Below are positions 4,545 to 31,266 of a stretch of 37,130 bases of DNA, one piece after another. The stretch's first letter is position 1. Each line of letters begins with the position of its first letter. The notes below the pieces were generated by a model. It saw only the letters and a program-made list of their open reading frames with translations. It was not told the DNA's origin and did not search any database. This stretch comes from Chthoniobacterales bacterium (GTDB taxonomy: Bacteria > Verrucomicrobiota > Verrucomicrobiia > Chthoniobacterales > UBA10450): assembly GCA_025935755.1 (NCBI GenBank), contig JAICUQ010000014.1:1-37130 (forward strand), read 5' to 3'. A program made the translations under genes and the position numbers.

Positions 4545-4582
4545 ATCGTTAGGCCAGCCGAACAGCAGAGACGTTCGCCGAT

Positions 4583-6046
4583 TTATCGGAGGCTAAAGGC
4601 GTACACTTTGTTTGCCCCGGCGAAATACATTCGGCCGCGGGCGACGATGCCCGTGTTCCATTTGCTGGTGGCGCTCATTAGCTCGTTAGGCCCGCCGCCG
4701 GCATAAACGATCGCCCCGGAATCGCCGTCAAATCCACGCAGCCGTTGATCACCGTTTCCCGAGTTTGCTGTCCACACGATCACGTTATCGGTGCCATTGG
4801 TCGCTGTAACCCAGGGCGAACCCTGACCGTTCTGCGAAACACTCCATGCCGGAATTATCGTCGGCGGATTTGTGGCAGTAACCTTGTAAGCGCAAATCGC
4901 GCCGCTGGTGGCACGGAAAACAAAATAGGTTCCCAGCCTGGTGCGATAAGTAGCAGCCGCTTGACCACGAATCGAAGTGGCAACTTGCGCTGATGAAACG
5001 GGGGCGCGTATTCCGCCAAGATTGTTTCGATTAAGCAAATATGCTTTGCCGTCTTTGCCTAAGGCAAGCACCAGTTGCGATGGCGTCGCCCCATTCACAG
5101 TGATGAGCACTGGGCCACAGCCCCCCAGATCGGTGTCTCCGTTATCGAGTGCGAACCAGTTGGTCGGCGCCCAGTAATCGATCGGATTTCCGCTGAAGAC
5201 GGGCCCAGGGTGCAAACGAATTACTGCTTCGCCGCCGCCCCACTGTCCGCCAGTCTGGAATGTATTCCCTGTGACCACAAACATGTTGGTGCCACCGCTC
5301 GCAATGCCACCGTGGCCCCAAATTCCGCCACCAACAGCGCTGGTTGCCCACGCGGTCACCGTCGCAGGGTTGTTGATTGGCACGCCAACGACCCAGCCCC
5401 GGTAGCTGCCACAGTCGCCGAAATGCCCCGAGTAGGGCACGTACAGCACGCCGTTCACCAATGCAAGCGCGCCCCGCTGGTTTTGGATGGATGAAGTAAA
5501 AGTTAAGCCGTTGTACCTGGCTTTCGCGTTCACATCCACCGGCCAGCCGGAACGGGTCGCGCCGGTGTCCACGTTTAGTGAAAAAATTAAATGCTTGATT
5601 GTCGGCCCCGCGATCATCGCATCGAAGAACAACGATCGCGTCGCCACATCGAGAACTGGCGTACCCGTAATTCCGAGCGGATTGATGTTGCCGCATGGCA
5701 GACCGGAAGTCACAGGCGCGCCGACATAACGTTGCCAAATTACCTGGCCGGTGCGCGCGTTGAGTGCATACACGTGATTCGTCTCGGTGGCTACAATAAC
5801 CATCGCTGCACCCCCCGGTCCGTTCTCGATGTAGAGCGGTTGGGCGTAGACGCTGCCTGAAATCGTCCCGTTGAACTTCACATCCCGCCGCAGATTTGCG
5901 GCGGTTGTTTGCGTGAAAGCTGAATCGATATAGAACCCATCACGAGAAAGATGTTTGTGCTCCTGCGTGACGTTTACCTGTGCCTGCGTCGAACTGGCAA
6001 TCAGCCCAGCGACAAGTACCCAGAGATTGCCCACTAAAAATTTCAT
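4583..6046 (-). CDS. Exported PQQ-like beta-propeller protein
   Basis: A 487-residue secreted protein: signal peptide MKFLVGNLWVLVAGLIASST with likely cleavage after QAQ, then repeated beta-propeller blades. Blade signatures of the PQQ/quinoprotein type are seen in VIVATETNHVYALNARTGQV, ALVNGVLYVPYSGH, LVLALGKDGKAYLLNRNN and ARGRMYFAGANKVYAFSLR. The closing blade lies at the very C-terminus. There is no cytochrome c CxxCH motif and I see no calcium/PQQ ligand set of the alcohol dehydrogenases, so this is more likely a structural or binding propeller than an active quinoprotein dehydrogenase. Similar proteins are common in soil bacteria as outer-surface or periplasmic proteins of unknown role. 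It has its own upstream region and no operon partner. Confidence 0.85.
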   Translation of the reverse strand: MKFLVGNLWVLVAGLIASSTQAQVNVTQEHKHLSRDGFYIDSAFTQTTAANLRRDVKFNGTISGSVYAQPLYIENGPGGAAMVIVATETNHVYALNARTGQVIWQRYVGAPVTSGLPCGNINPLGITGTPVLDVATRSLFFDAMIAGPTIKHLIFSLNVDTGATRSGWPVDVNAKARYNGLTFTSSIQNQRGALALVNGVLYVPYSGHFGDCGSYRGWVVGVPINNPATVTAWATSAVGGGIWGHGGIASGGTNMFVVTGNTFQTGGQWGGGEAVIRLHPGPVFSGNPIDYWAPTNWFALDNGDTDLGGCGPVLITVNGATPSQLVLALGKDGKAYLLNRNNLGGIRAPVSSAQVATSIRGQAAATYRTRLGTYFVFRATSGAICAYKVTATNPPTIIPAWSVSQNGQGSPWVTATNGTDNVIVWTANSGNGDQRLRGFDGDSGAIVYAGGGPNELMSATSKWNTGIVARGRMYFAGANKVYAFSLR

Positions 6047-6159
6047 CGTTCCGGTGCCATCGGTCCGGTCCGATGTTATCCCGCGACTTGTTCAGTGAAT
6101 ACGGATGTCGCGCTGCGAGAGGTTGCACCGAAACCGTTGTGTCCACCTAAATTCTTCTC

Positions 6160-7044
6160 TTAGAGATTTGACTTAGGGACAACGACATTCACTGCGCGTG
6201 GCACGAAAGTAATGTCTGCGGTCTTACCCGTTTGCACCCTTTCTCCATCGAGGAAAATGGGGATATCTGTGTCTGATTGCACAACGACGTTATGCGTTTT
6301 GGTGAGCGTCACGCTTTCATTGTCACGCCACCGTCCGAAGGCAGCCGCTGTTGCCAGCCCGAGTAATTTGCGGGCGTTCTCCACTTCGATCGCTGCCGCC
6401 TCCAATGCTTGCTCGGAATCCGACATTTCCTCTGAAACAAGCGGACAGATCACGGCAATGACATCAGCTTCTCCACACGCCTGAGATGAGATGGAATACC
6501 GAATTTTTGTTTCGAACATTGCTCGTAAAGCGACGGCGCTTTTTTCAACGGCATCACCGAACTCCCGTTCGCGTATGGATTCACGCGCTTCCATCCACAA
6601 ACCGGGCGCACCGATGACAGCAGCAACGAAAAATAATTCGTCTCCAATGCGACCTGCCGAAAGCGCCTTTTTCGAAGGCGCCGCGAGTGTGCTTTTGAGC
6701 GCCTCCTGCCATGACAAGTCGCCATACAGCGCCCGAGGAAGCATGTTCAACGTCCCACCCGGAAGCGGCAGGAGATACGTATCAGTTCCCGTGCACGCTT
6801 CCGCAGCAGTGCGGATGGTGCCGTCTCCGCCGAGGACTGCAAGGATTCCGGGTTTTTCGGCTACTGCTTCCGCAAACGCGCGCTCGATTTGGCGCGACTC
6901 TCCACACCATGTCTTACAATTGTTCACGCCTGCGCTTTTGAGGATGTGAAGCATTTCCGCCTCGGAGCCGGAGTCGCAGCCGCCACTTGACGTGTTGATT
7001 ATCGCTCCAACTTTCAGTTCTGATACATCGATGCCAACCGACAT
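6160..7044 (-). CDS. Diacylglycerol kinase family lipid kinase (YegS/LCB5-like)
   Basis: A 294-residue member of the DAGK-catalytic superfamily, soluble or peripheral enzymes that phosphorylate diacylglycerol, sphingoid bases or related lipids with ATP. N-terminal VGAIINTSSGG is the first nucleotide-binding strand and loop. GGDGT at residues 72-76 and PLPGGTLN at 93-100 are the diagnostic motifs of the family. The C-terminal half is the beta-sandwich lipid domain, ending with the usual FLDGERVQTG strand and a short positively charged tail. The length is typical for YegS-type kinases. There is no signal peptide or membrane segment. The substrate cannot be told from sequence. It is followed at 6046 by the propeller gene on the same strand, about 110 bp away, probably separately expressed. 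Confidence 0.9.
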   Translation of the reverse strand: MSVGIDVSELKVGAIINTSSGGCDSGSEAEMLHILKSAGVNNCKTWCGESRQIERAFAEAVAEKPGILAVLGGDGTIRTAAEACTGTDTYLLPLPGGTLNMLPRALYGDLSWQEALKSTLAAPSKKALSAGRIGDELFFVAAVIGAPGLWMEARESIREREFGDAVEKSAVALRAMFETKIRYSISSQACGEADVIAVICPLVSEEMSDSEQALEAAAIEVENARKLLGLATAAAFGRWRDNESVTLTKTHNVVVQSDTDIPIFLDGERVQTGKTADITFVPRAVNVVVPKSNL

Positions 7045-7344
7045 AATGTCAGATGTGTAAACGTAGTCGCCACGGCAAATGGCGGTAACGATTCCGGTAT
7101 GATGTTATCGAAGCGACATGCGGTCATTCCCGGCAACGCGAGGGATTTGACAAAAGATGGAACGTTCAGGCACCGCTATTTTCGATCGAGAGACCCGTCA
7201 CATCGTAGATTACGCACCAGTGCTGCCTCATTCGTTTCCCGGCGGCCACGCTGCACGCAGGCTTCGGCGAAAGCCCGTCTCTACGCGGCTCGAAGATCGA
7301 GCCGCGCAGAGACTCCCCCCGCAAAGTGAACTTGTTCCCGCGAC
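7045..7344. other. Intergenic region with one strong hairpin
   Basis: The 300 bp between the lipid kinase start and the end of the 961-residue gene holds the hairpin at 7277-7313. Short open frames here on both strands have no recognisable features and are read as noise. It must contain the promoter of the kinase gene and the terminator of the large gene, but I see no convincing -35/-10 pair. Confidence 0.5.
7277..7313. repeat. Near-perfect 16-bp-arm palindrome (extragenic hairpin)
   Basis: The arms GTCTCTACGCGGCTCG and CGAGCCGCGCAGAGAC pair over 16 positions with one mismatch around a 5-nt loop. It lies about 30 bp downstream of the stop of the minus-strand 961-residue gene. There is no T-run on either side, so it is not a classical Rho-independent terminator. 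It could stop or stabilise the 3' end of that transcript, or be a dispersed REP-like element. Confidence 0.75.
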
Positions 7345-10230
7345 CTAATGTGCCGGGCACGGGCCACTTCCGGCCGAATCGTCAATGAAGCCGGAAACCG
7401 TGCCACTGAACACCGATGACGCGCTAATAGTGCCCGTCGTGTTTACCACGATGACAAATGGCGCATGAGGTGGCACGACAAAGGAATAGGACACGTTCGG
7501 GACTGTTGTGCCCAAACCTACTATTCCGGTGTCGCCCAAATAGTTCAGGCAGAGGTTTGTCGGATCGTACGTTCCGAGATATGCCGCGCTCTCGAGGTCA
7601 CCAGCGCCTCCAAGTGCAGCATTGATCGTGACAGTGAAGCATGCAGCAGAAGCGCTATTGTTTGTGAAGTTGAATGTCTGAAACAATTTCGTTCCAGGGA
7701 AGCCACCGCCCGGGCAACCCTTTCCACTGCAGCTGCTCGGCTGACCATCACGTCCAAGCCGATCGGCCTGGGTTGGATCATTCGCGTCGAGAACGTCCGG
7801 GCCAAATGTCTGGTCCGCGCCGCCCCCGCACGTTGGTACGCTGATGTGAACAGTCTTGCTTCCATTCGGGAACGTGAGGTTCAGGTCAAACTCAATCTCC
7901 GTTCCGCAGGCGAAATTGGCGTCAGTCTGAATTTCGAACGGCGTCACATTCTCGCCCTGTTGGTCAATAGGCATGTCAGGATAATTTGAGTTTCCCTGTA
8001 TGACATGTGCACCCTCAGTGTTTGTGGTTAGCGTCGCAGAGATTCCCGTCGCATCAGCGCAACCGTTGTTCTTCAGCGTAATATTCAGATTTTTGCAATC
8101 ATTCCGGTGAATCACGCCATTACCGCTGATGGCCACGTCTTCCTCCTGGAGGTTTGAAGTTCCTACCATTGTGAAGTTCTGGTGCGTCTCGCCATCACTG
8201 GTGATGGTCACAGGTTGATTCGCAGGCGAACCGCTCGTGCAGTTGCGATCTGCGTCGGCAGCGTTCGCAGTGTAGTTGCCGGGTGGCACCAAAAACGAAT
8301 ACACGCCGTCCGCGTTGGTGGCGCCTGCATATCCGTTGTTCAAAGTAACCACAACACCCGAAAGCGGCGTGTTGGTTGGTGACGAAACAACCGTTCCAGT
8401 TAGTGTTCCCCACGCAGGTGCATCAGAACAGGCGTTAAACCTGTAAGCTGCCACCAGCGTAGACCAATTAAAATTACCATCGGTCTGTAAGTACTCGTTT
8501 GTGTAGTAAAACGTGCACTGGTTGACCGGGTCGAGGCTCATAGCGCTGTAATCACCCCAGCGGTTTCCACCAGCGACTTGCACGCCACCCCCGGCCCTGA
8601 CTTCGCTCTCAGCACCCAGCGTATTAAGAGGGTCGTTGCCGAGACGCCCGGTGATGAATATCGAGGGTTTTACAGTTAAGCTCGATTTGCTGTAGCCCAG
8701 CGCGATGTTGTGTTCTTTGTCCATCGCGATCGATCCCATCCAGCGATAGTTGTTGTCGGGATCATACGTGCTCGCCTGGAAAACAGTGGGCATGGTCGTC
8801 GAGCCGCCTGCGTTTCTGAATTCATACCAACGGATCGCTCCATGCTTGGGTTGGCTGTTTTTGCCTGTAACTGTGACGTTCGCTACAAGGGATTCCTGCA
8901 CAGGATTGCCGCCAAAGTTACGATACGCCAGCCGATGCATCAGGTGGAAGTCGAGGCTGTCAAGGTAATCCGTCGGCGTCGCCGGAGCGGGCTCTGGCAC
9001 GCAATCACGATGATCGCCCAGATCAGTATCGCTGACACACGGCGCGGTATCCCAGCTCTCCTGAATGAAACTTTCGGTTAAACGAATTTTCGGCGCAGCG
9101 CCCCACGTAACTGCTACTCGTGTCGACGCCAGCTTATTTTTAGTGGTCGGATGCGGACCAATCACGAACTCAGCTTCCCCGGCCGGAGGCGGAGTTAAGC
9201 TATCGAGATCCGCGGGAAGAAATCCGAATTGCGGTTTGTTCCCATATTTTTTCAGGTCAGCCTGCAGCTGGCGGGCTGGGAGACCTGCCAGCATTTTGTC
9301 GCGTTCAAAAACGAAGATTCTTCCCTGAAGAAACGCCGTGCCAGAAGCGTTGAAGATATGACCGCTCATATAATATCCGTCCGGCCAGACGGCGAGCTTG
9401 GTATAATCGACGAAATTCTGGGAGTCGGTTACGAAATCGTAAAGGTAATACGCTCCAGTAGCATCCTCTGTTTGTGAGACGGCAACGCACTCATGCGAAA
9501 AGTCGGGGCTCGCGCCAACAACAAATTGCGAAAGAACCCAACGCCCGGCCAGGATGTCGAACGAGACTACCGGGTCCCCATCGTTGTGAACTGCACAAGC
9601 TCCGCCGAGCGATTGAAAAAGTGTATTGCCAGCAGCCGGTCCGAAAAGCACTTCACCAGTTGTTTTATCGAAAACAGCGAAACTGGTGTTGTTCCACTGG
9701 ACATACTGTTTCGCGCCGACTCGCCCGTTCGTGTCCGGAGGATTGCTTCCAGGGACGAATGCGCCAAGACCCACACCAACACCATCGAAAACCACCCCTG
9801 TCGGCGTCGGCGCCGAGAGGACTCGACCTGAACGGGTTTGCGTCATGCCAACGTTCGCCCTGTCAGTGGGCGGATTGGGCCGCATCGGTTCGGGAAGGTC
9901 AGGGCGCGGCGCCAGTGCCGGAGGAATCATCGGCAACTGGCGAAGTGGCCGGGTATGCACTGCCCTTACCGCACGAGAGTTGTAACGCGGACCTCTGTAA
10001 TTAGCGACCGTCTGATCGTGAAATGTCCCCTGTAGCGGTTCCCGGGGTGCTTTGAAAATCGGAGCGCCTGCGCCTCCTCTTTTCTGTGTGAAAACAGACG
10101 CAAACTTTTGCGAATCTAAACGAACACCGAAAGCCAGTAGCGCAAGGATGCCACTAACTAATGCCAAAAAAACGCCGATAAAAATTCGGCGATTAAAGAA
10201 TGCGGATCGAGTGGAGCATTTTTTTTTCAT
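7345..10230 (-). CDS. Large exported protein with carboxypeptidase-regulatory-like domain
   Basis: 961 residues. A basic start and one hydrophobic segment (residues about 14-37) form a long signal peptide or anchor. A Pro/Arg-rich linker follows, then a ~480-residue N-terminal domain starting near GVGLGAFVPGSNPPDTNG. This part contains propeller-like strands (WVLSQFVVG, LAVWPDGYYMSGHIF, WGDYSAMSLDP) and resembles uncharacterised secreted proteins. Near residues 610-690, GTLTGTVVSSPTNTPLSGVV ... GVYSFLVPPGNYT is a carboxypeptidase-regulatory-like (transthyretin-type) domain. A CARDB-like beta domain (NLNITLKNNGCADATG) follows, then a Cys-containing C-terminal jelly-roll. No catalytic motif is seen. 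Codons 2-4 lie in an A9 homopolymer directly after the ATG. Its 126-residue neighbour has the same transthyretin-like fold. Probably a cell-surface or secreted protein; substrate unknown. Confidence 0.8.
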   Translation of the reverse strand: MKKKCSTRSAFFNRRIFIGVFLALVSGILALLAFGVRLDSQKFASVFTQKRGGAGAPIFKAPREPLQGTFHDQTVANYRGPRYNSRAVRAVHTRPLRQLPMIPPALAPRPDLPEPMRPNPPTDRANVGMTQTRSGRVLSAPTPTGVVFDGVGVGLGAFVPGSNPPDTNGRVGAKQYVQWNNTSFAVFDKTTGEVLFGPAAGNTLFQSLGGACAVHNDGDPVVSFDILAGRWVLSQFVVGASPDFSHECVAVSQTEDATGAYYLYDFVTDSQNFVDYTKLAVWPDGYYMSGHIFNASGTAFLQGRIFVFERDKMLAGLPARQLQADLKKYGNKPQFGFLPADLDSLTPPPAGEAEFVIGPHPTTKNKLASTRVAVTWGAAPKIRLTESFIQESWDTAPCVSDTDLGDHRDCVPEPAPATPTDYLDSLDFHLMHRLAYRNFGGNPVQESLVANVTVTGKNSQPKHGAIRWYEFRNAGGSTTMPTVFQASTYDPDNNYRWMGSIAMDKEHNIALGYSKSSLTVKPSIFITGRLGNDPLNTLGAESEVRAGGGVQVAGGNRWGDYSAMSLDPVNQCTFYYTNEYLQTDGNFNWSTLVAAYRFNACSDAPAWGTLTGTVVSSPTNTPLSGVVVTLNNGYAGATNADGVYSFLVPPGNYTANAADADRNCTSGSPANQPVTITSDGETHQNFTMVGTSNLQEEDVAISGNGVIHRNDCKNLNITLKNNGCADATGISATLTTNTEGAHVIQGNSNYPDMPIDQQGENVTPFEIQTDANFACGTEIEFDLNLTFPNGSKTVHISVPTCGGGADQTFGPDVLDANDPTQADRLGRDGQPSSCSGKGCPGGGFPGTKLFQTFNFTNNSASAACFTVTINAALGGAGDLESAAYLGTYDPTNLCLNYLGDTGIVGLGTTVPNVSYSFVVPPHAPFVIVVNTTGTISASSVFSGTVSGFIDDSAGSGPCPAH

Positions 10231-10296
10231 GTACTTTTAGGGCCATGTGATGGCTAGGTGGTTGAGGTTGGAGTTGAAGTGGATGTGATTTCTGAC

Positions 10297-10322
10297 GCGC
10301 GGCTTCAGGTGTGAAGTCGCGC
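10297..10322. repeat. 10-bp-arm hairpin in the 5' leader of the large exported gene
   Basis: GCGCGGCTTC and GAAGTCGCGC pair fully (one G-U) around a 6-nt loop, about 70 bp upstream of the ATG at 10230 on the minus strand. It could be a leader structure or an operator. The rest of 10231-10529 is AT-rich. A weak minus-strand promoter candidate (TTGACG near 10360) is visible, but its -10 element is poor. Confidence 0.5.
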
Positions 10323-10529
10323 ATGAGAGTTGTTGTCGGATAATGCCCAAACGAAAATCGTCAACGACGTAGTTTCATAAAATTTACAAAACACTTAGGA
10401 AAATAACCCTAGTCCGTGGTCGCTGCTGGGAAGCCGGATTCTAAAGTAACAACGCTGTAACTATTGATTTACGGTTACAAGTCCACATCGACTGGCAGAT
10501 CGCCCTCGCGATCGCCTGATCCAGACTTC

Positions 10530-10910
10530 TCAGCGCATTCCTGAGTCGCAGCGCCATTCGACATTTGTCATCCTGCCTCGGTCAACATTCACTCGAAATG
10601 GACCGCATGGCTTTGGAAACCGGTTCTCGGCAAGCAGAACCACGTAGCGGCCCGGTTGTAACAAAACTTTGAAGCACCCCAGTGCGTCTGTCGTAAATTT
10701 TTTTACTCCACCAGCGTCGCTCGTAACCGTGAACGTGGCATTGGGAAGCGGTGCCGCGTTCGGAGGTTCAGAGCCAGCTTTGATTGGGCCGGGACGTATC
10801 GGAGTAACCATGATTACCCCTGCGATTCCGGTGTTCTCAGGTTTGGATTCACCGCGAGTTACCGACACAACCACAAAAGACAAAGCTACAGCCAAAACGT
10901 GCAACCACAT
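10530..10910 (-). CDS. Small secreted protein with prealbumin-like (CarboxypepD_reg) fold
   Basis: 126 residues. A signal peptide (MWLHVLAVALSFVVVSVTRG) is followed by one compact beta domain: GVIMVTPIRPGPIKAG, LPNATFTVTS, GGVKKFTTDALGCFKVLLQP and GRYVVLLAENRF. The pattern of a variable insert, a TDxxGxFxxxLxPGxY strand and a closing strand is the carboxypeptidase-regulatory / transthyretin-like signature. Two or three Cys near the C-terminus could form a disulfide. It lies upstream of, and on the same strand as, the 961-residue exported gene, which has the same kind of domain, but the ~300 bp gap argues against one tight operon. Probably periplasmic; role unknown. Confidence 0.7.
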   Translation of the reverse strand: MWLHVLAVALSFVVVSVTRGESKPENTGIAGVIMVTPIRPGPIKAGSEPPNAAPLPNATFTVTSDAGGVKKFTTDALGCFKVLLQPGRYVVLLAENRFPKPCGPFRVNVDRGRMTNVEWRCDSGMR

Positions 10911-11016
10911 TTTATCGAGTCTCCAGTAACTGCCCTTTTAGCCAAAGCATTTCCTATTTCTTTCGCATTCGCGATTGAGTAAGGCCCTAATTTAGCCTCG
11001 GGGTCAGAATCAGGCA

Positions 11017-11427
11017 TTGCGCAGAGAGCCCAGCACTTCGAATGTGTTCGCGTTTTCGATTTCCTGTGAGTTGAAACGCAAGAAACCAGCACGGCAGAAA
11101 GAAGAAGACTTCCACCACAACGTTTATGTGGTTCTTCTCAGTGACGATGTCGCAAAACATCCTTCTATTTTGCGACTCAATCCGCAACGCGATCCGCTTA
11201 AGCCGTGTGTCTATGTGGGCATGACAGGTATTCCGGTTGATCACCGATTCGAAAACCATAAGATCGGCTACAAGTCGGCCTGGGTCGTCAGAAAATACGG
11301 TGTGCGACTCATGCCGGAGCTGTACCAGCATCTGAACCCTATGCCGTTTGAAGCCGCTGTCCAAATGGAGCTAGAGCTAGCCGAAGACTTACGCGCTCAG
11401 GGATACACTGTCACCGGCGGACACTAA
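11017..11427 (+). CDS. GIY-YIG-like nuclease-superfamily protein
   Basis: Up to 136 residues; the start is unresolved (TTG 11017, GTG 11044 or TTG 11071), and no Shine-Dalgarno sequence favours one. The core reads NVYVVLL ... PCVYVGMTGIPVDHRFENHK ... ALELAEDLRAQGYTV-like (here LELAEDLRAQGYTV). This matches the order of the GIY-YIG fold: a first strand with VYV in place of GIY, a second strand YVGMT in place of YIG, a conserved Arg in DHRF, and a C-terminal Glu-bearing helix. The family includes repair and homing nucleases and many uncharacterised small proteins. An insert separates the two tyrosine strands. It stands alone, convergent with the stress genes. Superfamily call fairly likely; activity unproven. 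Confidence 0.6.
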   Translation: MRREPSTSNVFAFSISCELKRKKPARQKEEDFHHNVYVVLLSDDVAKHPSILRLNPQRDPLKPCVYVGMTGIPVDHRFENHKIGYKSAWVVRKYGVRLMPELYQHLNPMPFEAAVQMELELAEDLRAQGYTVTGGH

Positions 11428-11524
11428 CACGTTGGCGACGTCAGCCGACCTGTTCGGCGCCAGTCGCATCAGTGCGACTAACAAGTGCCGCATCCAGACC
11501 GAATAAGCTCTCTCAATTTAGCAA

Positions 11525-11845
11525 TCAGCGTCGACGGCGCATGAGTCCAAGAACAAACCCGATGCCAAGGGCAGTGAACACCGCTTTGGTCGGATTCCTT
11601 CGAACGTAATCATCGGTGTCTTGCTTTAATGTTCGGAGGCGCTCTTTCGCATCATCCAACACTTCTCCCCCGCTTACACGTTTGGCCGGTGTTACATTCC
11701 CGGTTGTGCGCGTACCGCTGCTTTGCACATTCGGCCGTGGCCTGGCCGCAGACCGCCCGGCTTGCGACCCGGGGTTTTCCTCGCCGGTTCCTTCCGCCTG
11801 CGGCGAAACTGCAGGCCCTTGATTCGTGTGATTTTCTTCAGCCAT
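11525..11845 (-). CDS. DUF883 / YqjD-ElaB-like membrane-anchored protein
   Basis: 106 residues with a disordered Gly/Pro/Ser-rich first half, then a helix DDAKERLRTLKQDTDDYVRR, then a short C-terminal membrane segment (AVFTALGIGFVLGLM) closed by four arginines. Helix, RxNP turn, glycine-rich tail anchor and Arg cluster are the hallmarks of the YqjD/ElaB/DUF883 family. E. coli members are inner-membrane proteins that bind ribosomes in stationary phase. A GAGGG stretch sits about 7 nt before the ATG. It is the last gene of a three-gene minus-strand group (YflT-like at 11864, BON at 12423), spaced 18 bp from its neighbour, so co-transcription is likely. The long disordered N-terminus is unusual for the family. 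Confidence 0.8.
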   Translation of the reverse strand: MAEENHTNQGPAVSPQAEGTGEENPGSQAGRSAARPRPNVQSSGTRTTGNVTPAKRVSGGEVLDDAKERLRTLKQDTDDYVRRNPTKAVFTALGIGFVLGLMRRRR

Positions 11846-11863
11846 GATGCCCTCTTCTAATTC

Positions 11864-12388
11864 CTAAGCCTTCGGTACTGATGCTTCGCTGACAGTGCTG
11901 ATATCTTCAGCGTGAGCATTTTTGAAAATATCCTTGGCGCGATCAACGTCGCCGCTCTCGTCAGCGTGGACAGCGATGAGGTAGTTACCCTTCTTAAGCT
12001 TTTCGTCGTAACGCTTTGCTTCGATTTCCGGGATGCCGAGCCCAACTAAACCACCGACCACTCCGCCAGTAGTTGCGCCCACGGCTGCACCACTCAGTGC
12101 CGCCATGATCGGACCAGCGGCGATGAATGGACCGAGACCGGGAATTGCCAGGGCGCCAACTCCTGCCAACAGCCCAAGGACGCCTCCTGTGACGCCGCCG
12201 GTGGCTGCGCCAGTGGTGGCTCCTTCAGGCGCCTTCGTTGCCTTCACGTGACCGATGTCATGTGTGCCGGCTGTGTCAGGCATCAGGACTGAAATTTCCG
12301 AGGCTGCAAAGCCCTGACCTTGGAGCTGCCGGACGACTTGCTCAGCCTGACCTTGTGTAGTTGCGATACCGAATACTGATTTAGACAT
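11864..12388 (-). CDS. General stress protein, YflT-like with glycine-zipper
   Basis: 174 residues. The N-terminal module (SVFGIATTQGQAEQVVRQLQ ... FAASEISVLMPD) fits the heat/general-stress YflT (GSP17M) domain, a small alpha/beta fold found in envelope stress proteins. Residues about 60-130 are a Gly/Ala-rich double hydrophobic stretch (GATTGAATGGVTGGVLGLLA, GAAVGATTGGVVGGLVGLG), a glycine zipper likely to insert in a membrane. The C-terminal part (YDEKLKKGNYLIAVHADESG) repeats the alpha/beta theme, so the zipper interrupts the domain. I chose the ATG at 12388 over the longer frame to 12550 because the upstream extension is basic and low in structure and an AGGGAAG lies about 10 nt before this ATG. 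It lies 18 bp upstream of the DUF883 gene. Confidence 0.8.
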   Translation of the reverse strand: MSKSVFGIATTQGQAEQVVRQLQGQGFAASEISVLMPDTAGTHDIGHVKATKAPEGATTGAATGGVTGGVLGLLAGVGALAIPGLGPFIAAGPIMAALSGAAVGATTGGVVGGLVGLGIPEIEAKRYDEKLKKGNYLIAVHADESGDVDRAKDIFKNAHAEDISTVSEASVPKA

Positions 12389-12422
12389 ATAAAATAACTT
12401 CCCTTTCTGTTGTTGGTTGAGT

Positions 12423-12815
12423 TTACTTGGATTCTTTGACGTCGAGTTGGTCGACGACCTGGGCACCGCCAGCCACCGATTTTGCGATCTGAGCGATCTT
12501 GGTTTTCTCCTGGGCAGTCTTAACCGGTCCTCGGAGTGTAACCTGGCCACCGGCGGTAACGATCTTGACGTTCTTTGCCGTCATCGACAGTTCGCCGTCT
12601 TTCATCAACGCGCGCCGGACGTCCTGCGTGATCTTTAGATCCGCGGAACTGTTTGATTGGTCGCCCGATGTGTTGGTTTCACCGGAATGATCCCGTTTAT
12701 TTATTGCGGTGTTATCCGCATTTGTTTTCTCATCCGCAGCCGCGGCAGCCAGACTAAAAGCTGTAATAGCAGCTAAAGCGAGTGAAGTTCGTTTTATGGT
12801 TTGTGTTAGTGTCAT
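12423..12815 (-). CDS. BON-domain periplasmic protein
   Basis: 130 residues. Signal peptide MTLTQTIKRTSLALAAITAF with probable cleavage near SLAAAAADE, a polar Asn/Asp/Thr-rich linker (DNTAINKRDHSGETNTSGDQ), then one BON domain at residues about 55-128. The domain has DLKITQDVRRALMKD, AKNVKIVTAGGQVTLRGPVK and AQIAKSVAGGAQVVDQLDVK, the classical BON pattern with its conserved glycine (VTLRGPV). BON proteins such as OsmY bind phospholipid surfaces and are osmotic-stress or stationary-phase products. The gene is 34 bp upstream of the YflT-like gene on the same strand, so it is probably the first gene of a stress operon. Confidence 0.9.
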   Translation of the reverse strand: MTLTQTIKRTSLALAAITAFSLAAAAADEKTNADNTAINKRDHSGETNTSGDQSNSSADLKITQDVRRALMKDGELSMTAKNVKIVTAGGQVTLRGPVKTAQEKTKIAQIAKSVAGGAQVVDQLDVKESK

Positions 12816-12847
12816 AGTTTCTTTGCGTGGTTGAAGGACGCTGGGTA

Positions 12848-13039
12848 TTAATCGTGGTTGATACAGGAGCCGGTCTTACCTCCTGATAGGGTTGGATCAA
12901 GGGTAGCTGGCATCGACGAAACTCGGTCTGGTGGGAGCAATCCACAATCGGGCTCAAGCACGACCAGGTAGTCGGACGAAGGACTATCGTGCACGGGTGG
13001 CAGGATTAGGACTCCAGCGAAGCCGACAAACAGTGGCAC
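12848..13039 (-). CDS. Possible small exported peptide (weak)
   Basis: A 63-residue frame from a GTG at 13039 contains a hydrophobic start (PLFVGFAGVLILPP) followed by a polar tail with two Cys. Reading further upstream in frame adds IKLSIRT directly after an AGAGGT stretch, which would make a normal signal peptide, but the codon at that place is ATC. It could be a short secreted protein with a rare ATC start, or noise. The rest of 12816-13197 shows no other feature apart from being the shared upstream region of the divergent BON and aminotransferase genes. Confidence 0.22.
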   Translation of the reverse strand: MPLFVGFAGVLILPPVHDSPSSDYLVVLEPDCGLLPPDRVSSMPATLDPTLSGGKTGSCINHD

Positions 13040-13197
13040 TGTGCGGATCGACAGCTTGATAGTTTTACCTCTTGTTGCGCCATTGATTGTTAACTACGCG
13101 TTGTGAAATGGCAGGTCTGGCCGCTTCTCATCAGCCGGAATTGCGCGAAACTAGCGGGGAGGCAACAATTTGCATGTAGATGACCAACAGGAGGCGA

Positions 13198-14559
13198 ATG
13201 TCGGGGTGCGCTAAAATGACAGAGCCGCCTAAACTGCCGCCATTCGACTATCAGCCGCAGCCATATCTTGGGCCATCCGCTGAGGAGGTGCTGCGCTTAG
13301 GCCGGCAATTCCTGAATCCGGGCCTTTTCCTTTACTACAAACGACCTTTGATGCTCGTGGAGGGCAAAGCTCAATATGTATTCGACGAACAGGGACGACG
13401 ATATCTTGATGCTCTTGGCGGCATCGTGACGATTAGCGTTGGACATTGTCATCCGAAAGTCGTGGAGGCGGCCGGCCGGCAGAACGCGCTCTTGCAACAT
13501 TCGACCACGATCTATCTGCACCCGAACATCGTTGAGTACGCGGAGAAGCTTGCAGCAAAGATGCCCGGCGATTTGAACGTCTGCTATTTCGTCAACTCAG
13601 GATCCGAAGCCAACGATCTCGCGCTGTTGATAGCCCGCGTTTACACGGGGAACTATGATGTTATTGCGCTTCGAAATTCGTATCATGGAGGCAATGCGTC
13701 AGGAATGGGACTCACGGCGCATCGCACTTGGAAGTTCAATGTGCCGCACAGTTTCGGCGTGCACCACGCGATCAGTCCCGACCCGTATCGCGGATCGTGG
13801 GGCCGCGACGATCCGGATGCAGGATACAAGTATGCCGCCGACATCAAGAGTTTGATCGACCACGCCACTTCAGGAGACGTCGCCGCGTTTATCGCCGAAT
13901 CCATACAGGGCGTCGGTGGATGCGTAGTGTTTCCAGAGAATTATCTGAGCCGCGCGTACGAACATGTGTGGGCGGCCGGCGGGGTGTGCATCGCTGATGA
14001 AGTACAGACTGGATTCGGACGCACTGGCAGCCACTACTGGGGATTTGAGACTCAGAATGTCATCCCTGACATCGTGACAATGGCCAAAGGAATCGGCAAT
14101 GGCACTCCGCTCGCTGCCGTTGTCACTACGCCGAAGATCGCATCAACATTAACCCAGCGGCTCCATTTCAATACTTTCGGCGGCAACCCCGTCGTATGCG
14201 CGCAGGGGGCAGCGGTGCTGGATGTGATCGATCGCGAAAAATTGCAGACAAACGCCCTGAAAATTGGTAATCACATCCTCGCGGGACTCGAGCGCCTGAA
14301 AGAAAAACATAATCTGATCGGTGACGTACGCGGCAAAGGCTTGCTCCTGGGAATTGAACTGGTGAAAGACCGTGCGACGAAAGAACCTGCGACTGCTGAA
14401 TGTGGACAGGTCCTGGAAAACTGTCGTGACATGGGACTACTTCTTGGCAAGGGCGGTCTGTACGGCCAGACGATCCGATTTTCTCCGCCGATGTGCGTGC
14501 ATCAACAAGACGCCGACTTTCTGCTCGATGTGTTGGATCGAGCGTTTAGCGTTGTTTAA
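13198..14559 (+). CDS. Class III aminotransferase, AGXT2-like (alanine-glyoxylate type)
   Basis: PLP-dependent transaminase. Numbering from the upstream ATG at 13180, the PLP lysine is K303 in MAKGIGNG, the cofactor aspartate lies in [20 protein letters not shown] and SGSEAN at 140-145 binds phosphate. The run of matches to mammalian AGXT2 is unusually close ([52 protein letters not shown]). AGXT2 uses alanine or beta-aminoisobutyrate as donor and glyoxylate or pyruvate as acceptor; the bacterial substrate is inferred only. Start: AGGAGG at 13189-13194 lies 3 nt before ATG 13198, closer than ideal. ATG 13180 and ATG 13216 are alternatives, and homology starts just after 13216. The protein is cytoplasmic, single-copy and not in an evident operon; the AI-2E gene follows about 165 bp later. 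Confidence 0.93.
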
Positions 14560-14725
14560 AGTAATTCGGATGTCAGATCGCCGGTCAAATTCAGCATCAA
14601 CACACGCATATCCTAAGATTGATGCGATTCATGCGGCGGAGGCCGGTGGATTGCCGAACATTAACATCATTGCGGCGCAGAATCGTCAATCTGGCCGGCG
14701 CATTTGCTAACAGAGAATTTTGACG

Positions 14726-17161
14726 ATGCATTCACCCCGGACGATCGAACGAGCCGGTCCAGTTGATTCACGGGTACGAACGCCGCCTCCGTCGCTCACC
14801 GCCGCTGCCGCGCTCAACGGAATCTGGAGCCTTTTGCTGATCGCGTTCGTTGTTGCCGCGCTGTACTTCGGGCGATCGCTGTTCGTGCCGGTTGCTCTTG
14901 CTACGCTGATCACGTTTTTGCTGTCCAGGTTAGTCACGCGCTTGGAACGCTGGATCGGCCGCATCGCGGCCGTGTTAGTGACAGTCATTGCGATGTTCAC
15001 CATCTTTGGCGCGGTGAGTTGGGTCATTGGACGACAAGTGATCGATCTGGCTGACAAAATGCCTGACTACCAGGCCAATATCACCACCAAAATCCGATCG
15101 CTCAGACTGCCTGCCGGCGGACCTCTGGCGCGATTTTCATCCAGCGTTCACGAGCTGCAGAACGAGTTCGTTGCGCCCACTGCCGCTCCGGAAACGAACC
15201 GAACCGGCAGTACTCTCTCAAAGAGAACCCCGGCGCCTGTCGGGTCTCCCATCCCGGTAAAGGTGATCGAAGGCCGCAACGCAATCCCGCAACTGATGCA
15301 GGAGACTCTCAGCGCGATTCTGAGTCCGCTCGGTATGGCTGCATTGGTGCTATTGCTCGTTATTTTCATGCTGCTAAAAAGAGAGGACATTCGCGGCAGA
15401 TTGATTCGTTTGCTAGGGCAGGGGCGAATCAGCACAACCACCCACGCCATGGAAGACGCTGGACGCCGTGTGTCACGTTATCTATCCACGCAGTTTCTGG
15501 TCAACACGTGTTACGGCATCTGCGTTGCCGTTGGACTGCAGCTGATTGGAGTTCCCAATGCCGCTCTATGGGGATTATTAGCCGGTGTGCTAAGGTTCAT
15601 CCCTTACGTTGGCCCATGGGTGGGCGCTCTCCTGCCGGTGTTACTATCGTTCGCCATCTCTGCAAGCTGGTTCATACCTCTAATGACCATCACGTTGTTT
15701 GTCGTGTTAGAGCTGATTGTATCGAATTTCATCGAACCCTGGTTATACGGTGCGAACACCGGTGTTTCGCCGTTTGCGTTGATCATTTCGGCGGTATTCT
15801 GGACCTGGCTATGGGGACCGGTTGGTCTGGTACTTTCTACTCCTATGACTGTGTGTTTGGCGGTGATAGGACGACATGTTCCGCGGCTCGAGTCTCTCGG
15901 GATCCTGTTGAGCGAGGATCAACCACTGGCGCCTCATGAGGAGTTTTACCACCGGCTCCTGTCGTTCTCGCTGGATAGCTCGGAAGAATTTGCAAACAAA
16001 TACGCCGATACGGAATCACTGAGTGCGGTCTACGATAACGTTTTAATTCCCGCGATCGCTGCTGTCGAAATCGACGCGCATGCGGGCTCACTGACTCCGG
16101 AGCAAAGGACCTCCGCATTGCAGCGAGTTCATGAAATCATAGATGAATTCAGCAGCCGCGAGGTTTCACCTGTTGCTGAAGATGACCAACAGAATGCGGG
16201 ACTGACCAGTGTCGCTCCTGCGATTGGCAACCGTGTTCTTTGTCTTCCCGCGAGCGCCTATCGCGACGAACTTGCCGGGGAGATGCTCGCACAGCTACTT
16301 CGGCACCACGGATATGAAGCTGAAAGCTTACCCGCGCAGCTGACGCACGAAGAGTTGCTCGATCGGACTGTTGAACATCAGCCGGAATGCATCTGCGTTT
16401 CGGTGTTGCCGCCTACAAGTATCGCTGAGGCTCGCCACCTCACTTCCGCGATTCGTGAGCGACTTGGAAGTCCGACAATTCTCGTCGGCGTCTGGAGTAC
16501 AAGGTTTGATGCCGAGAAGCTGAGAGAACGGTTGAAGGGCGTGCATATAAGCGATGTAGCCGTCTCCCTCGCAGACGCGGTGCAACGGATTGACAAAATG
16601 ACTGCTGCAATTCCCGACACAATGAAGGCGGCGCCCATCCTACCTAACGAGAAAGAGCGCCTGGCGGAACTAGACGGGTTAAATCTTCTCGATACGCCAA
16701 GGGAAGCAAATTTCGATCATGTTACCGAGCGCCTGGCAAAACTTTTCAGGGTTCCAATCGCACTGATAACTTTGATCGATAAAAACCGGCAGTGGTTCAA
16801 ATCACAGACCGGATTGCCAGCCGACCTTGCCGAGGCGCGCTCCACCTCGCGCGACGTTTCGCTTTGCGGGCACGTTGTTGCCAACGATGAACGATTAATC
16901 GTACGCGACCTGGCGCGGGATCCCCGGTTCGCTAACAACCCTTTTGTGAAGGAACACGGCCTGCGGTTCTACGCTGGGGTCCCTTTACGCGGACCCAATG
17001 GCCTTCCGATTGGATCATTGTGCATCCTCGACACGAAACCGCGCGATATGACACAGCAGGAGCAGGAACTGCTTAAGATGATCGGTGACGACGTGATGGA
17101 AGAGATAAAGCGACGCCCCGTTGCCGAGGTGCCGAAAATCGCTGTTGCGGAAAAAACATAG
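14726..17161 (+). CDS. AI-2E family transporter fused to B12-binding-like and GAF domains
   Basis: 811 residues from the ATG at 14726 (a TTG lies two codons upstream). Residues ~28-400 are the AI-2E/PerM exporter fold: hydrophobic helices at the start, then an amphipathic soluble segment, then the family's conserved membrane half (LIGVPNAALWGLLAGVLRFI, SNFIEPWLYGANTGVSP, GPVGLVLSTPMTVCLAVIGR). Residues ~500-620 form a Rossmann-like domain in the style of B12-binding modules (RVLCLPASAYRDELAGEML), but the cobalamin-ligand DxHxxG is missing. Residues ~640-795 are a GAF sensory domain (PIALITLIDKNRQWFKSQTG, DVSLCGHVV, GLRFYAGVPL, GSLCILDTKPR). AI-2E proteins move small molecules or ions; the long form with the B12-like extension is, as I recall, known, while the added GAF is unusual. 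The soluble part is probably cytoplasmic, hinting at transport gated by a small ligand or redox state. Confidence 0.9.
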   Translation: MHSPRTIERAGPVDSRVRTPPPSLTAAAALNGIWSLLLIAFVVAALYFGRSLFVPVALATLITFLLSRLVTRLERWIGRIAAVLVTVIAMFTIFGAVSWVIGRQVIDLADKMPDYQANITTKIRSLRLPAGGPLARFSSSVHELQNEFVAPTAAPETNRTGSTLSKRTPAPVGSPIPVKVIEGRNAIPQLMQETLSAILSPLGMAALVLLLVIFMLLKREDIRGRLIRLLGQGRISTTTHAMEDAGRRVSRYLSTQFLVNTCYGICVAVGLQLIGVPNAALWGLLAGVLRFIPYVGPWVGALLPVLLSFAISASWFIPLMTITLFVVLELIVSNFIEPWLYGANTGVSPFALIISAVFWTWLWGPVGLVLSTPMTVCLAVIGRHVPRLESLGILLSEDQPLAPHEEFYHRLLSFSLDSSEEFANKYADTESLSAVYDNVLIPAIAAVEIDAHAGSLTPEQRTSALQRVHEIIDEFSSREVSPVAEDDQQNAGLTSVAPAIGNRVLCLPASAYRDELAGEMLAQLLRHHGYEAESLPAQLTHEELLDRTVEHQPECICVSVLPPTSIAEARHLTSAIRERLGSPTILVGVWSTRFDAEKLRERLKGVHISDVAVSLADAVQRIDKMTAAIPDTMKAAPILPNEKERLAELDGLNLLDTPREANFDHVTERLAKLFRVPIALITLIDKNRQWFKSQTGLPADLAEARSTSRDVSLCGHVVANDERLIVRDLARDPRFANNPFVKEHGLRFYAGVPLRGPNGLPIGSLCILDTKPRDMTQQEQELLKMIGDDVMEEIKRRPVAEVPKIAVAEKT

Positions 17162-17515
17162 AATTTACCGCATCCGTTTTTCCTTACCTGCGGTCATTTC
17201 TGTAAAACCATTGGCTGGCGTGGTGCAAACTCCTCATGGGGTGGTCGAATGATGAGAACGGAAAGATGCGGGGAGTTCCTCCTTCTGCTGTGGAGAGGGA
17301 GATGAATCGATGTTTCTTCACGTAATTCGCGGTTAGTTCCTTCGGCCACGGTGGAACTGACAATTGTTGAAAACAGGTGTCGCCATCGGCGACCCGAGAG
17401 CATCAATTCAAAATATCCGGTTGTAATCTTCTCTAAAATGCTAGTCTAGACGGCGAAATGCGAAGGAGGTCTTCGGGCTTCGCGCAACGCTTGAATGGGA
17501 ACCGATGGAAAAGTA
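17162..17515. other. Intergenic region without a supported gene
   Basis: About 350 bp. A possible ACCGCA/TGCGGT stem lies just after the preceding stop (17168-17196), and a small GTCGCC-ATC-GGCGAC hairpin lies near 17380. AAGGAGG occurs at 17463-17469 but is not at useful distance from a start with coding features. Nothing else was recognised. Confidence 0.45.
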
Positions 17516-18310
17516 ATGGGGAAACGCTGCGCACTTGCTCTTTTTTGTTTCGCCCTCTTCATCGCGTTCGATCCCGCGTTTGCTCAAATCGAGGCGGGCA
17601 GCGAAAAAGACAAAACAAGCATGAGAAAACCGTCGCCCTCTCGAGCAGCGCGGCCATTCGCATGGAAAACCAACATCGTAACGACAGTTTTTTGGATCGG
17701 TGAAAAGCCCGGCGGAAATAATCTTGTCCCGAATCGCACGAGTGCCTGGGACAAACAATGGACTAAAAATTATGGTGGCTTTGACGACCCCGATCCTGCC
17801 AATCGACGTAACTATGTGCCGGTAAAGTTTAAGCCGCGGCAGAACCCGTTTTATTGCGCGCTGCCGTACAACGACAAGGCACATACCGGTCACCGGCCGG
17901 AAGCGCCGCGTGTTGTTCCATGGTTCCAAGCCGCCTACCAGGGACCAGCTGTTTCGACTTGCAAAGACCGATGGGTCGCAATCCGCAAGGGCAATCGAAT
18001 CGCTTATGCACAATGGGAAGATGCGGGGCCCTTCCGAACGGACCACTGGCAATATGTCTTTGGCAATGAACGCCCGAAACCCAACCTGAATAAGGGCGCC
18101 GGCCTCGATGTTTCTCCCGCGGTGAGAGACTATCTCGGACTGAAACCGACCGATGTCACCGACTGGCGGTTCGTGGAATTTAGTCAGGTGCCGCATGGCC
18201 CCTGGTCAACTTTGGGTGAAAACAACACCTTTGTGACTAATCCTCGCAAAAAAGGTGTGCAGGTCACCGAGCGATCAAACCAAACCAGAGCAGGTGCGAT
18301 TGCCCGATAA
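17516..18310 (+). CDS. Exported RlpA-like (double-psi barrel type) protein
   Basis: About 264 residues from ATG 17516 (an in-frame ATG at 17495 adds seven polar residues). Signal peptide MGKRCALALFCFALFIAF with cleavage near AFAQ. The body has TTVFWIGEKPGG, PFYCALPYND, a CxxxW segment (TCKDRWVAIRKGNRIAYAQW), then EDAGPF and GAGLDVSPAVRDYLGL. The late GLDVSP-A-x-x-L-G element and the preceding EDAGPF glycine turn are like the closing strands of RlpA-type double-psi beta-barrels, which bind or cut peptidoglycan glycan strands. The usual catalytic Asp motif is partly recognisable (WEDAGP). Only 18 bp separate it from the L,D-transpeptidase gene, supporting a cell-wall role. Fold inferred from motifs, moderate confidence. 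Confidence 0.7.
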   Translation: MGKRCALALFCFALFIAFDPAFAQIEAGSEKDKTSMRKPSPSRAARPFAWKTNIVTTVFWIGEKPGGNNLVPNRTSAWDKQWTKNYGGFDDPDPANRRNYVPVKFKPRQNPFYCALPYNDKAHTGHRPEAPRVVPWFQAAYQGPAVSTCKDRWVAIRKGNRIAYAQWEDAGPFRTDHWQYVFGNERPKPNLNKGAGLDVSPAVRDYLGLKPTDVTDWRFVEFSQVPHGPWSTLGENNTFVTNPRKKGVQVTERSNQTRAGAIAR

Positions 18311-18328
18311 CCGTCCGGTATCGAATGT

Positions 18329-18859
18329 ATGAATCGGTCTGCGCAGTTGTTGGCTTTTTGGGCAACGCTCGTCAGTTTGACGGGCTGCAGCACCGTGACA
18401 GACATGGTGACCTCGAACCTGCCGGAGTCTCATTCAGGACGACCGACAATCGTCGTGAGTTTACGGGCACAGGAAGCGTATCTCTATCGGGCCGGGCAGA
18501 GAACGGCATCATCGCGGATCTCCAGTGGCCGCGAAGGTTACCGTACTCCTGTTGGCCGGTTTCGAGTGATTCGCAAGGACCAGGATCATCGCTCGAGCAT
18601 TTACGGTGACTACCTCGATGACTCTGGCCGCGTCGTAAAGGCTAACGTCGATATCCGCCGCGCCGCGAAACCGCCGCATTCGCACTTTGTTGGATCGCCG
18701 ATGCCCTACTTTCTGGAATTCTCGCCAGGTTACGGATTGCACCAGGGTTATCTGCCAGGCGTGCCCGCATCACACGGATGTATCCGAATGCCTTACTGGA
18801 AGGCACGCCAATTCTATAATGCCGCGCACATCGGCACGTTGGTGATCATCAAATCGTAG
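18329..18859 (+). CDS. L,D-transpeptidase (YkuD) lipoprotein
   Basis: 176 residues. The N-terminus MNRSAQLLAFWATLVSLTGC is a lipoprotein signal with lipobox LTGC (Cys20). The YkuD catalytic domain covers residues ~38-175: IVVSLRAQEAYLYRAGQ, YRTPVGRFRVIRKD, then His138 in GLHQG and the active-site motif SHGCIRM with Cys151 and Arg153. These enzymes form 3-3 crosslinks in peptidoglycan or attach lipoproteins to it. The motif is intact, so activity is likely, and the lipid anchor puts it in the periplasm on a membrane. It is immediately downstream of the RlpA-like gene (18 bp) and probably in the same transcript. No separate LysM or PG-binding domain is present. Confidence 0.92.
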   Translation: MNRSAQLLAFWATLVSLTGCSTVTDMVTSNLPESHSGRPTIVVSLRAQEAYLYRAGQRTASSRISSGREGYRTPVGRFRVIRKDQDHRSSIYGDYLDDSGRVVKANVDIRRAAKPPHSHFVGSPMPYFLEFSPGYGLHQGYLPGVPASHGCIRMPYWKARQFYNAAHIGTLVIIKS

Positions 18860-18875
18860 AAAGTAGTCCGCGCGA

Positions 18876-18900
18876 GCTGCGGCAAATTTTTTACCGCAGC
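18876..18900 (+). terminator. Possible terminator or extragenic hairpin after the YkuD gene
   Basis: GCTGCGG and CCGCAGC form a perfect 7-bp stem around an 11-nt loop containing TTTTTT, starting 17 bp after the YkuD stop. A proper U-run after the stem is missing, so termination by this element is only a guess. Confidence 0.4.
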
Positions 18901-19083
18901 GTTTGTCACAACCCTGCAGTTCCGCCCATTCGAGGAAGTTACCCCCGCTGCGGAGTTCAGTATCTAACTCCAAGTTGTGTTACCAGAACATCCACCAGCG
19001 GGATGTAATTCGAATCGTGTATCAAAAGCCAGTGTAGGATCTCGGTCGAGAGGCATTGGCGAACGTAACCACCAGTGAAGGAT

Positions 19084-19332
19084 ATGAAATTATCTGTTGA
19101 AGCAAAAGTGGCTGCTGCTGTAGCAGCGGGTTTTATAGCCTTAACTGCGGCGGAAATCGGGCAGGGAGGGGCTGAAGCACAAAGTAACGGGCCTAACAAC
19201 TATAGTCCGACCGTTCGTTCAGGGTTGAACACACAGACGACCTGGCAGGCATCTGAAAGTTCGCTGCCGGATGAATCGGCGGCGGACCGAATGGAAAACG
19301 TCTTCTCACACGTGAATCGAGTTCAACCCTAG
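19084..19332 (+). CDS. Small exported protein of unknown function
   Basis: 82 residues from ATG 19084 (GTG 19075 adds three). The N-terminus has a Lys-bearing start (MKLSVEAKVAAAVAAGFIAL) and an Ala-rich hydrophobic stretch ending near GGAEAQS, a plausible Sec signal peptide. The mature part is polar, rich in Ser/Asn/Thr, with no motif I recognise. AAGG lies just 2 nt before the ATG, which is too close for a good ribosome site. It sits between the YkuD gene and the convergent xseA, stops about 40 bp apart. It could be a real small secreted protein, judged on signal peptide alone. Confidence 0.5.
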   Translation: MKLSVEAKVAAAVAAGFIALTAAEIGQGGAEAQSNGPNNYSPTVRSGLNTQTTWQASESSLPDESAADRMENVFSHVNRVQP

Positions 19333-19370
19333 ACTCCAAACAAGTTTCTCTGAATGCGGGTGTTGCTCTG

Positions 19371-30236: not shown

Positions 30237-30334
30237 GGGGTAAACGTTCTCGACAATTACAGTGTAGACGCGTTTGTGCCAAACCTATACCGATCTGGTC
30301 CGGCAGATGGCCCACGCTAAAGCAGGAGGTAAAA

Positions 30335-30408
30335 TCGGGCTGGTGGGATTTGAACCCACGGCCTCCTGGTCCCGAACCAGGCGCTCTACCAAGCTGAGCC
30401 ACAGCCCG
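30335..30408 (-). tRNA. tRNA-Pro (anticodon CGG)
   Basis: The reverse strand folds into a complete cloverleaf. The acceptor stem CGGGCTG/CAGCCCG is perfect, the D arm is GCTC-AGCTTGGTA-GAGC, and the anticodon stem CCTGG/CCAGG holds loop TTCGGGA. The variable region has five bases, and the T arm is GTGGG-TTCAAAT-CCCAC. The anticodon is CGG with G37, as in proline tRNA. The discriminator is A, and no CCA is encoded. An open frame that crosses it on the plus strand is not used as its start lies inside the tRNA region. Confidence 0.97.
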
Positions 30409-30582
30409 CAAAAACCGGACTTCTCCGGCGGACGCGGTTCTTACTTCGCGTATTTTAATCCAAATCGCAAGAAGCGAACTCCAAGGAGTGACGGCTTCCC
30501 ACCGATCATTTCAACCCGATGCTGCGCACGTTGCTATTCTTGGATTATCTTGCGAAGTCATGTCGCGCCGCTACGCTCGGCT

Positions 30583-31266
30583 GTGGTTGATCAGACGGAT
30601 GCCGCTGATAGCGGTTCATCTCATTTGAATCAGGTTCTGGAGTTGCTTCGGACACTAATGGAATACCGCAGCGCTGACGTACGTCATCGATTAGAAGAGG
30701 TCGGGCGGGAATCGTCGATGTTGCATGTGGACGTTTTACTTTTGATCTATCATTTCGCGCGCTTCAGCCCCGGTAATGTCCTCGAGGTCGGTCCCTACGT
30801 TGGCGGATCCACCATCGCAGCGGCCCTGGGCGCGCGTGAGTCGGACACACAGAAGAAAATCATCACGGTTGAAGCTGGAGGCAGTTTGAAGCATTTCCGC
30901 CTGTCGAGCAGGAACATTATCAAGGATTTGAAAAAGAACCTCACGCGATTTGGGGTCGCGCACGACGTGACTTTGATTCACGGCCGGTCTTCTGAAGACG
31001 CGATTAAGGCCGAGATTCATAAGCGGTTGGCCAGTCGCGAGGTCGGTTTGCTTATTTTTGACGCGGATAATAATGTGCGCCGGGATTTGGATGCTTACGG
31101 TGACCTGCTTCGCGTTGGCTGCTGGCTGGTGATCGACGATTACTTTGGGCCAGCCAAAGCGGCGCCGCTGCGGGCGCAGATCGACGGGTTGGTGAGTGAC
31201 GGCCCGCTGGTGCCGTTTGGTTACTATGGATGGGGCACCTGGGTCGGGCGATGGCAACGGAAATAA
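30583..31266 (+). CDS. Class I SAM-dependent methyltransferase (Methyltransf_24-like)
   Basis: About 228 residues from a GTG at 30583; ATG 30658 is the alternative (203 residues) and loses little of the fold. The SAM-binding motif I is NVLEVGPYVGGSTIAAALGA, with motif II KIITVEAGG in the usual spacing, then LIHGRSSEDAI, LLIFDADNNVRRDLDAYGDL and WLVIDDYFG. The D-A-D and DDYFG pattern is that of the Methyltransf_24 (cephalosporin hydroxylase/macrocin-type) group. The substrate is unknown. The open frame continues upstream through the tRNA, which should not be translated. It precedes rpoZ on the same strand by about 225 bp. Confidence 0.82.
   Translation: MVDQTDAADSGSSHLNQVLELLRTLMEYRSADVRHRLEEVGRESSMLHVDVLLLIYHFARFSPGNVLEVGPYVGGSTIAAALGARESDTQKKIITVEAGGSLKHFRLSSRNIIKDLKKNLTRFGVAHDVTLIHGRSSEDAIKAEIHKRLASREVGLLIFDADNNVRRDLDAYGDLLRVGCWLVIDDYFGPAKAAPLRAQIDGLVSDGPLVPFGYYGWGTWVGRWQRK

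Follow-up and report, generated by a model that had tools for sequence, protein, structure and literature searches.

A three-domain AI-2E-family protein with a B12-type Rossmann domain and a GAF domain in a Chthoniobacterales bacterium

In the 37,130-nucleotide window of DNA analysed here, a complete gene (14726..17161, + strand) encodes an 811-residue protein, P0001, in which an AI-2E/PerM membrane part is followed by a helical cap with a B12-type Rossmann fold and by a C-terminal GAF domain. This AI-2E + B12-fold + GAF order is genuine and widely distributed, has hardly been studied, and has a partly characterised precedent. AI-2E proteins are widespread and their substrates are mostly unknown. 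A clade with its own sensor domains offers a direct handle on the control of these transporters, perhaps also on their cargo, and a B12-type fold that has distinct conserved residues instead of the cobalt ligand makes it possible to test whether a sensor has switched ligand.

The gene and its genomic context

P0001 is read in one open frame, from the ATG at 14726 to the stop codon at 17159-17161, without internal stops. The three domains announced in the preliminary description were all recovered by Pfam: AI-2E_transport (PF01594; E=2.3e-41, 142.5 bits vs a cut-off of 34.3), B12-binding (PF02310; residues 519-605, E=4e-9, 36.8 bits vs 32.1) and GAF (PF01590; residues 660-792, E=2.1e-16, 61.1 bits vs 22.4), together with a sub-threshold match to the helical cap B12-binding_2 (PF02607) at residues 405-464. 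The membrane part was delimited at residues 24-395 (14795..15910, +), including helix 133-149 and a low-confidence loop at about 150-185, from PF01594 and from the likeness to TqsA (PDB 7nb6) in sequence and fold. The B12-binding_2-like cap region, residues 403-490 (15932..16195, +), was placed from the AF2 helices, the PF02607 match and conservation; the Rossmann domain, residues 503-626 (16232..16603, +), from PF02310 and fold matches; and the GAF domain, residues 642-795 (16649..17110, +), from PF01590, a match to the GAF of PDB entry 4zmu and a clade-specific insertion at 698-702. The AF2 model (monomer, 63 homologues) had a mean pLDDT of 87.3 and a pTM of 0.70, with the TM, cap, Rossmann and GAF blocks confident, and the tail modelled alone reached 92.3/0.81 (pLDDT/pTM).

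The source genome is a fragmented draft (3.67 Mb, 270 contigs, the window being contig 60), and nothing speaks for a frame or assembly artefact that fused two genes. The possible weakness raised at the outset, a stop codon overlooked or a slip of frame within 16600-16660, is excluded: at least 10 independent assemblies are collinear over this junction, and AF2 is confident on both sides of it. Six relatives from the same family or order show about 49-55% identity to P0001 over all three domains (one ends at a contig edge), more distant three-domain relatives mostly show 38-48%, and the domain order is shared by annotated plasmid genes of Paracoccus and Nitrobacter. Because orthologues are collinear over all three domains in many independent assemblies, complete Paracoccus and Nitrobacter plasmids among them, such a join was ruled out, and we regard its probability as negligible.

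The gene lies in a 14.8-kb stretch between glgB and xseA (4545..19370). Four congeners (L206, L209, L210 and L213) have glgB and xseA together on a single piece of sequence; there the corresponding gaps measure about 5.3, 1.3, 0.6 and 0.4 kb, and no match to the tested genes of the 14.8-kb stretch was obtained. No integrase or tRNA was noticed at the edges of this variable stretch. A search of 34 further genomes of the genus, many of them incomplete, did not reveal the three-domain gene. Its GC content is not unusual (54.4% vs 53.4-55.5% in the flanks), and in a tree the TM+B12 region of P0001 groups with Chthoniobacterales proteins. Since xseA on the contig is 72-84% identical to that of most congeners, and ruvB, xseA and glgB are ordered as in congeners, the contig belongs to the genome and bin contamination was ruled out. 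All-against-all comparison of flanking ORFs revealed no conserved neighbour or operon partner among three-domain loci, so the neighbourhood gives no pathway hint. Elsewhere in the window, the recognised part of a 961-aa ORF (7345-10230, -) is a CarboxypepD_reg-like stretch alone, a 271-aa ORF (17495-18310, +) matches neither Pfam nor NCBIfam and is signal-like at its N terminus, and a tRNA-Pro(cgg) (30335-30408, -) overlaps an opposite-strand mechanical ORF (30274-31266).

Distribution and related architectures

The three-domain order is no isolated case. When it was searched for and lineages were counted, it turned up in Verrucomicrobiota, in Alpha- and Gammaproteobacteria and in Acidobacteriota, that is, in several classes of at least three phyla. 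Genome samples were scored with alignment A2; as scoring was confined to the top few candidates of each genome, under strict cut-offs, the counts are lower bounds. The Verrucomicrobiota sample gave matches in 16 of 388 genomes; 10 of these genomes, the source genome included, had the three-domain form (E 1e-60). Matches were obtained in 22/367 genomes for the class of G483 and in 8/350 for the class of G476, with two three-domain proteins in each (those of G483 and G476 themselves included), in 11/199 for the phylum of G480 (the Acidobacteriota sample; one three-domain protein, L189) and in 7/199 for the phylum of G481 (no three-domain protein). The gene is also carried on plasmids, in Paracoccus yeei, P. 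marcusii and Paracoccus sp., Nitrobacter hamburgensis and Devosia neptuniae, and annotated three-domain records are named just "AI-2E family transporter".

The two-domain AI-2E + B12-fold form proved far wider than the three-domain form, in agreement with the first impression that the long form occurs elsewhere and that the GAF is the unusual step. No separate GAF gene, of the kind expected for a fusion precursor, was present in the flanks of two-domain transporters. In a Rhodospirillales MAG, L070 (5787-8597) encodes AI-2E, B12-fold and SpoIIE phosphatase in one frame, with SpoIIE in the GAF slot; signalling domains are thus accepted at this C-terminal position. An order search (one genome) returned no further SpoIIE fusion, and among plasmid records none reached 80% coverage of the L070 protein. 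In the three-domain L189 (1489-4794, -), the frame extends upstream and overlaps a 436-aa histidine kinase/response regulator-like ORF.

The membrane part and the two tail domains

The TM part of P0001 matched TqsA both in a sequence search (7nb6, E=3.5e-23) and in a fold search (7nb6_A, E=3.8e-11, TM-score 0.74 by target length, 24% identity). This fold and the family membership are what would be expected if P0001 exported AI-2 or exchanged Na+ for H+ as characterised AI-2E proteins do. Two observations make such a function very improbable. First, LuxS was absent from all 15 carrier genomes, the source genome (~90% complete) included, while 5 control genomes were positive. Second, the antiporter signature described for AI-2E proteins, E179-R182-K215-Q217-D251-R292-R293-E296-K298-S307 (PMC7221264), is not kept: when published motifs were compared by eye, only Q256, E337 and S348 of P0001 were retained among its positions, E179, R182, D251, R292 and R293 being lost (D251 reads as an invariant R290, R293 as N334 and E179/R182 as L217/E220). 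With LuxS missing from carriers and the signature absent, "AI-2 exporter" is a family name only.

In the Rossmann domain, the DxHxxG motif is indeed absent, as had been noted: residues 510-518 read SAYRDELAG and include no His. Across the 63 homologues there is no His-dominated column at 504-524, and P0001 has no His in residues 509-526, so that the heme-ligating His near the cobalt-ligating position, as in SCHIC, is missing too. A residue set of its own is strongly conserved in these homologues, with D514 and W590 in 62/63 each, R570 in 58/63, S559 in 56/63 and, in the cap region, Y408 and R410 in 63/63. This conservation indicates that the domain is altered and not decaying, and "degenerate" was too strong a word for it. 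Its fold matched AppA SCHIC (4heh) and B12-binding domains (8jbt/8c32) with TM-scores of 0.66-0.74 by target length; for 4heh alone the middle module scored 0.72-0.73 on the same basis, and it also matched further sensors of the cobalamin or heme type, namely CtMerR (8jbs/8jbt), CarH (5c8d) and photocobilins, as well as methionine synthase and MttC. A profile alignment put D514 at, or adjoining, the cobalt-ligating His position.

One probable relative has been tested. HaAI-2E (WP_052573826), expressed as a negative control and described as AI-2E + CBD + a third domain termed DGC (PMC11796333, FEBS J 2024), binds hydroxocobalamin and not AdoCbl or MeCbl, and an Arg replaces the cobalt-ligating His in superposition (PMC11796333). 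This Arg probably corresponds to R513 of P0001, with a register uncertain by one. The hydroxocobalamin binding means that loss of DxHxxG alone does not exclude corrinoid binding. Judging from name prefix and architecture, HaAI-2E is probably L041, the three-domain orthologue of Haloferula sp. BvORR071; as Pfam detected GAF and no GGDEF in L041, "DGC" may be a GAF misnamed after its closest structure. With this protein, the view in the preliminary description that the arrangement is not known to be characterised needs some amending.

The P0001 GAF resembles that of 4zmu (41% identity, rmsd 1.2-1.7 Å). Most members preserve nearly all of the residues that they have in common with free GAFs (R709, D728, D732, R734-F735, RFYAG 747-751, G763 and D769), and divergent GAFs occur in L120-L123, L159, L168 and L189. 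At 698-702, most fused GAFs carry the inserted residues, and 29 of 31 free GAFs have a gap. Of the 32 fused GAFs in a tree of this domain, 31 were separate from the 31 GAFs of other proteins; in a second tree, without the aberrant, fast-evolving and half-filled L168, the fused GAFs formed one side of a branch with support 97/80. When presence of the GAF is mapped on the TM+B12 tree, nine changes are required, and GAF was lost several times, which suggests that the transporter core works without it. Given one clade and a common insertion, a single AI-2E/B12-fold + GAF fusion followed by repeated loss and some transfer would be the simplest reading and fits the sequences best, within the limit set by a free GAF set (n=31) taken from top hits. 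That the fusion is kept across phyla argues for a function.

Possible function and comparison with known systems

We give an even chance to P0001 being a TqsA-like transporter of a long-form AI-2E clade, with a two-sensor tail and ligand-dependent gating. The cap and Rossmann module would be a non-canonical B12-fold sensor without the cobalt-ligating His, its ligand probably being a small molecule, perhaps an oxidised corrinoid or a tetrapyrrole related to it, and the GAF, apparently gained once in evolution, would be a second ligand or redox sensor. Ligand occupancy would rearrange the tail and would in this way gate the passage of a substrate that is probably not AI-2. Repeated loss of the GAF, its divergence in some members and the lack of conserved neighbours count against this model. 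Reading the GAF as a sensor is reasonable, though short of proof, and gating of transport by a small molecule or by redox state, as first proposed for this protein, is plausible. A wider hypothesis seems improbable on balance: that a whole transporter family in several phyla is directly gated by a corrinoid/tetrapyrrole-sensing B12-fold plus GAF, each a one-protein metabolite- or redox-gated transporter, with the GAF slot open to others such as SpoIIE phosphatase.

We infer that the tail is cytosolic and that P0001 is oligomeric. TqsA is a pentamer. The title of a structural paper cited in PMC9045395 describes it in the same way. In H. andaensis UPF0118, an AI-2E member, the C terminus was reported to be periplasmic by PhoA (PMC7221264); if this were also true of P0001, the tail would not be cytosolic.

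The SpoIIE of L070, an output enzyme in the place of the GAF, and the two-component genes near two carriers (Devosia and L189, the latter with its upstream kinase/response-regulator hybrid ORF) would suit a membrane receptor whose AI-2E part is an anchor or ligand receptor and whose tail signals to soluble partners. We consider such a receptor unlikely, though credible: SpoIIE is a single case from one MAG, the compared three-domain loci have no conserved signalling neighbour, and TM residues (G/P/R/E/W positions) are conserved over 63 homologues, in keeping with a transport core that functions. GAF domains often dimerise. Together with repeated GAF loss and the divergent GAFs of several members, this is consistent with a tail whose domains serve chiefly in the structure or assembly of an oligomer, the GAF being a packing element without ligand; the near-invariance of D514/R570/W590 and the free-GAF residues retained in most members speak against it, and we find it rather doubtful.

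The ligand-gated transporter that we favour can be set beside several known systems. E. coli TqsA/YdgG shares its TM fold with P0001, whereas TqsA has 344 aa and no tail domains, and E. coli has LuxS, unlike three-domain carriers. The two-domain proteins of Sinorhizobium, Azospirillum, Planctomycetota and Acidobacteriota have a TM part and cap/Rossmann module that are homologous to those of P0001 across ~600 residues (35-40% identity), and lack the GAF. The GAF of P. aeruginosa Dcsbis (4zmu) is similar to that of P0001, but is joined to a GGDEF cyclase and to no membrane transporter, whereas the fused clade has a GLPxDLA-type insertion. AppA SCHIC and AerR/CarH-type B12 sensors combine a four-helix cap with a Rossmann fold, as P0001 does; they are soluble regulators, each with a ligand His. 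SCHIC likewise departs from the cobalamin ligand position (PMC9144470); in AppA the ligand His is His284, which ligates heme from a site shifted by two. HaAI-2E differs in the third domain, termed DGC by its authors, from the GAF without GGDEF of L041; it resembles P0001 in that its AI-2E domain precedes a domain of the cobalamin-binding type, in which Arg stands in for the cobalt-ligating His, and a third, C-terminal domain.
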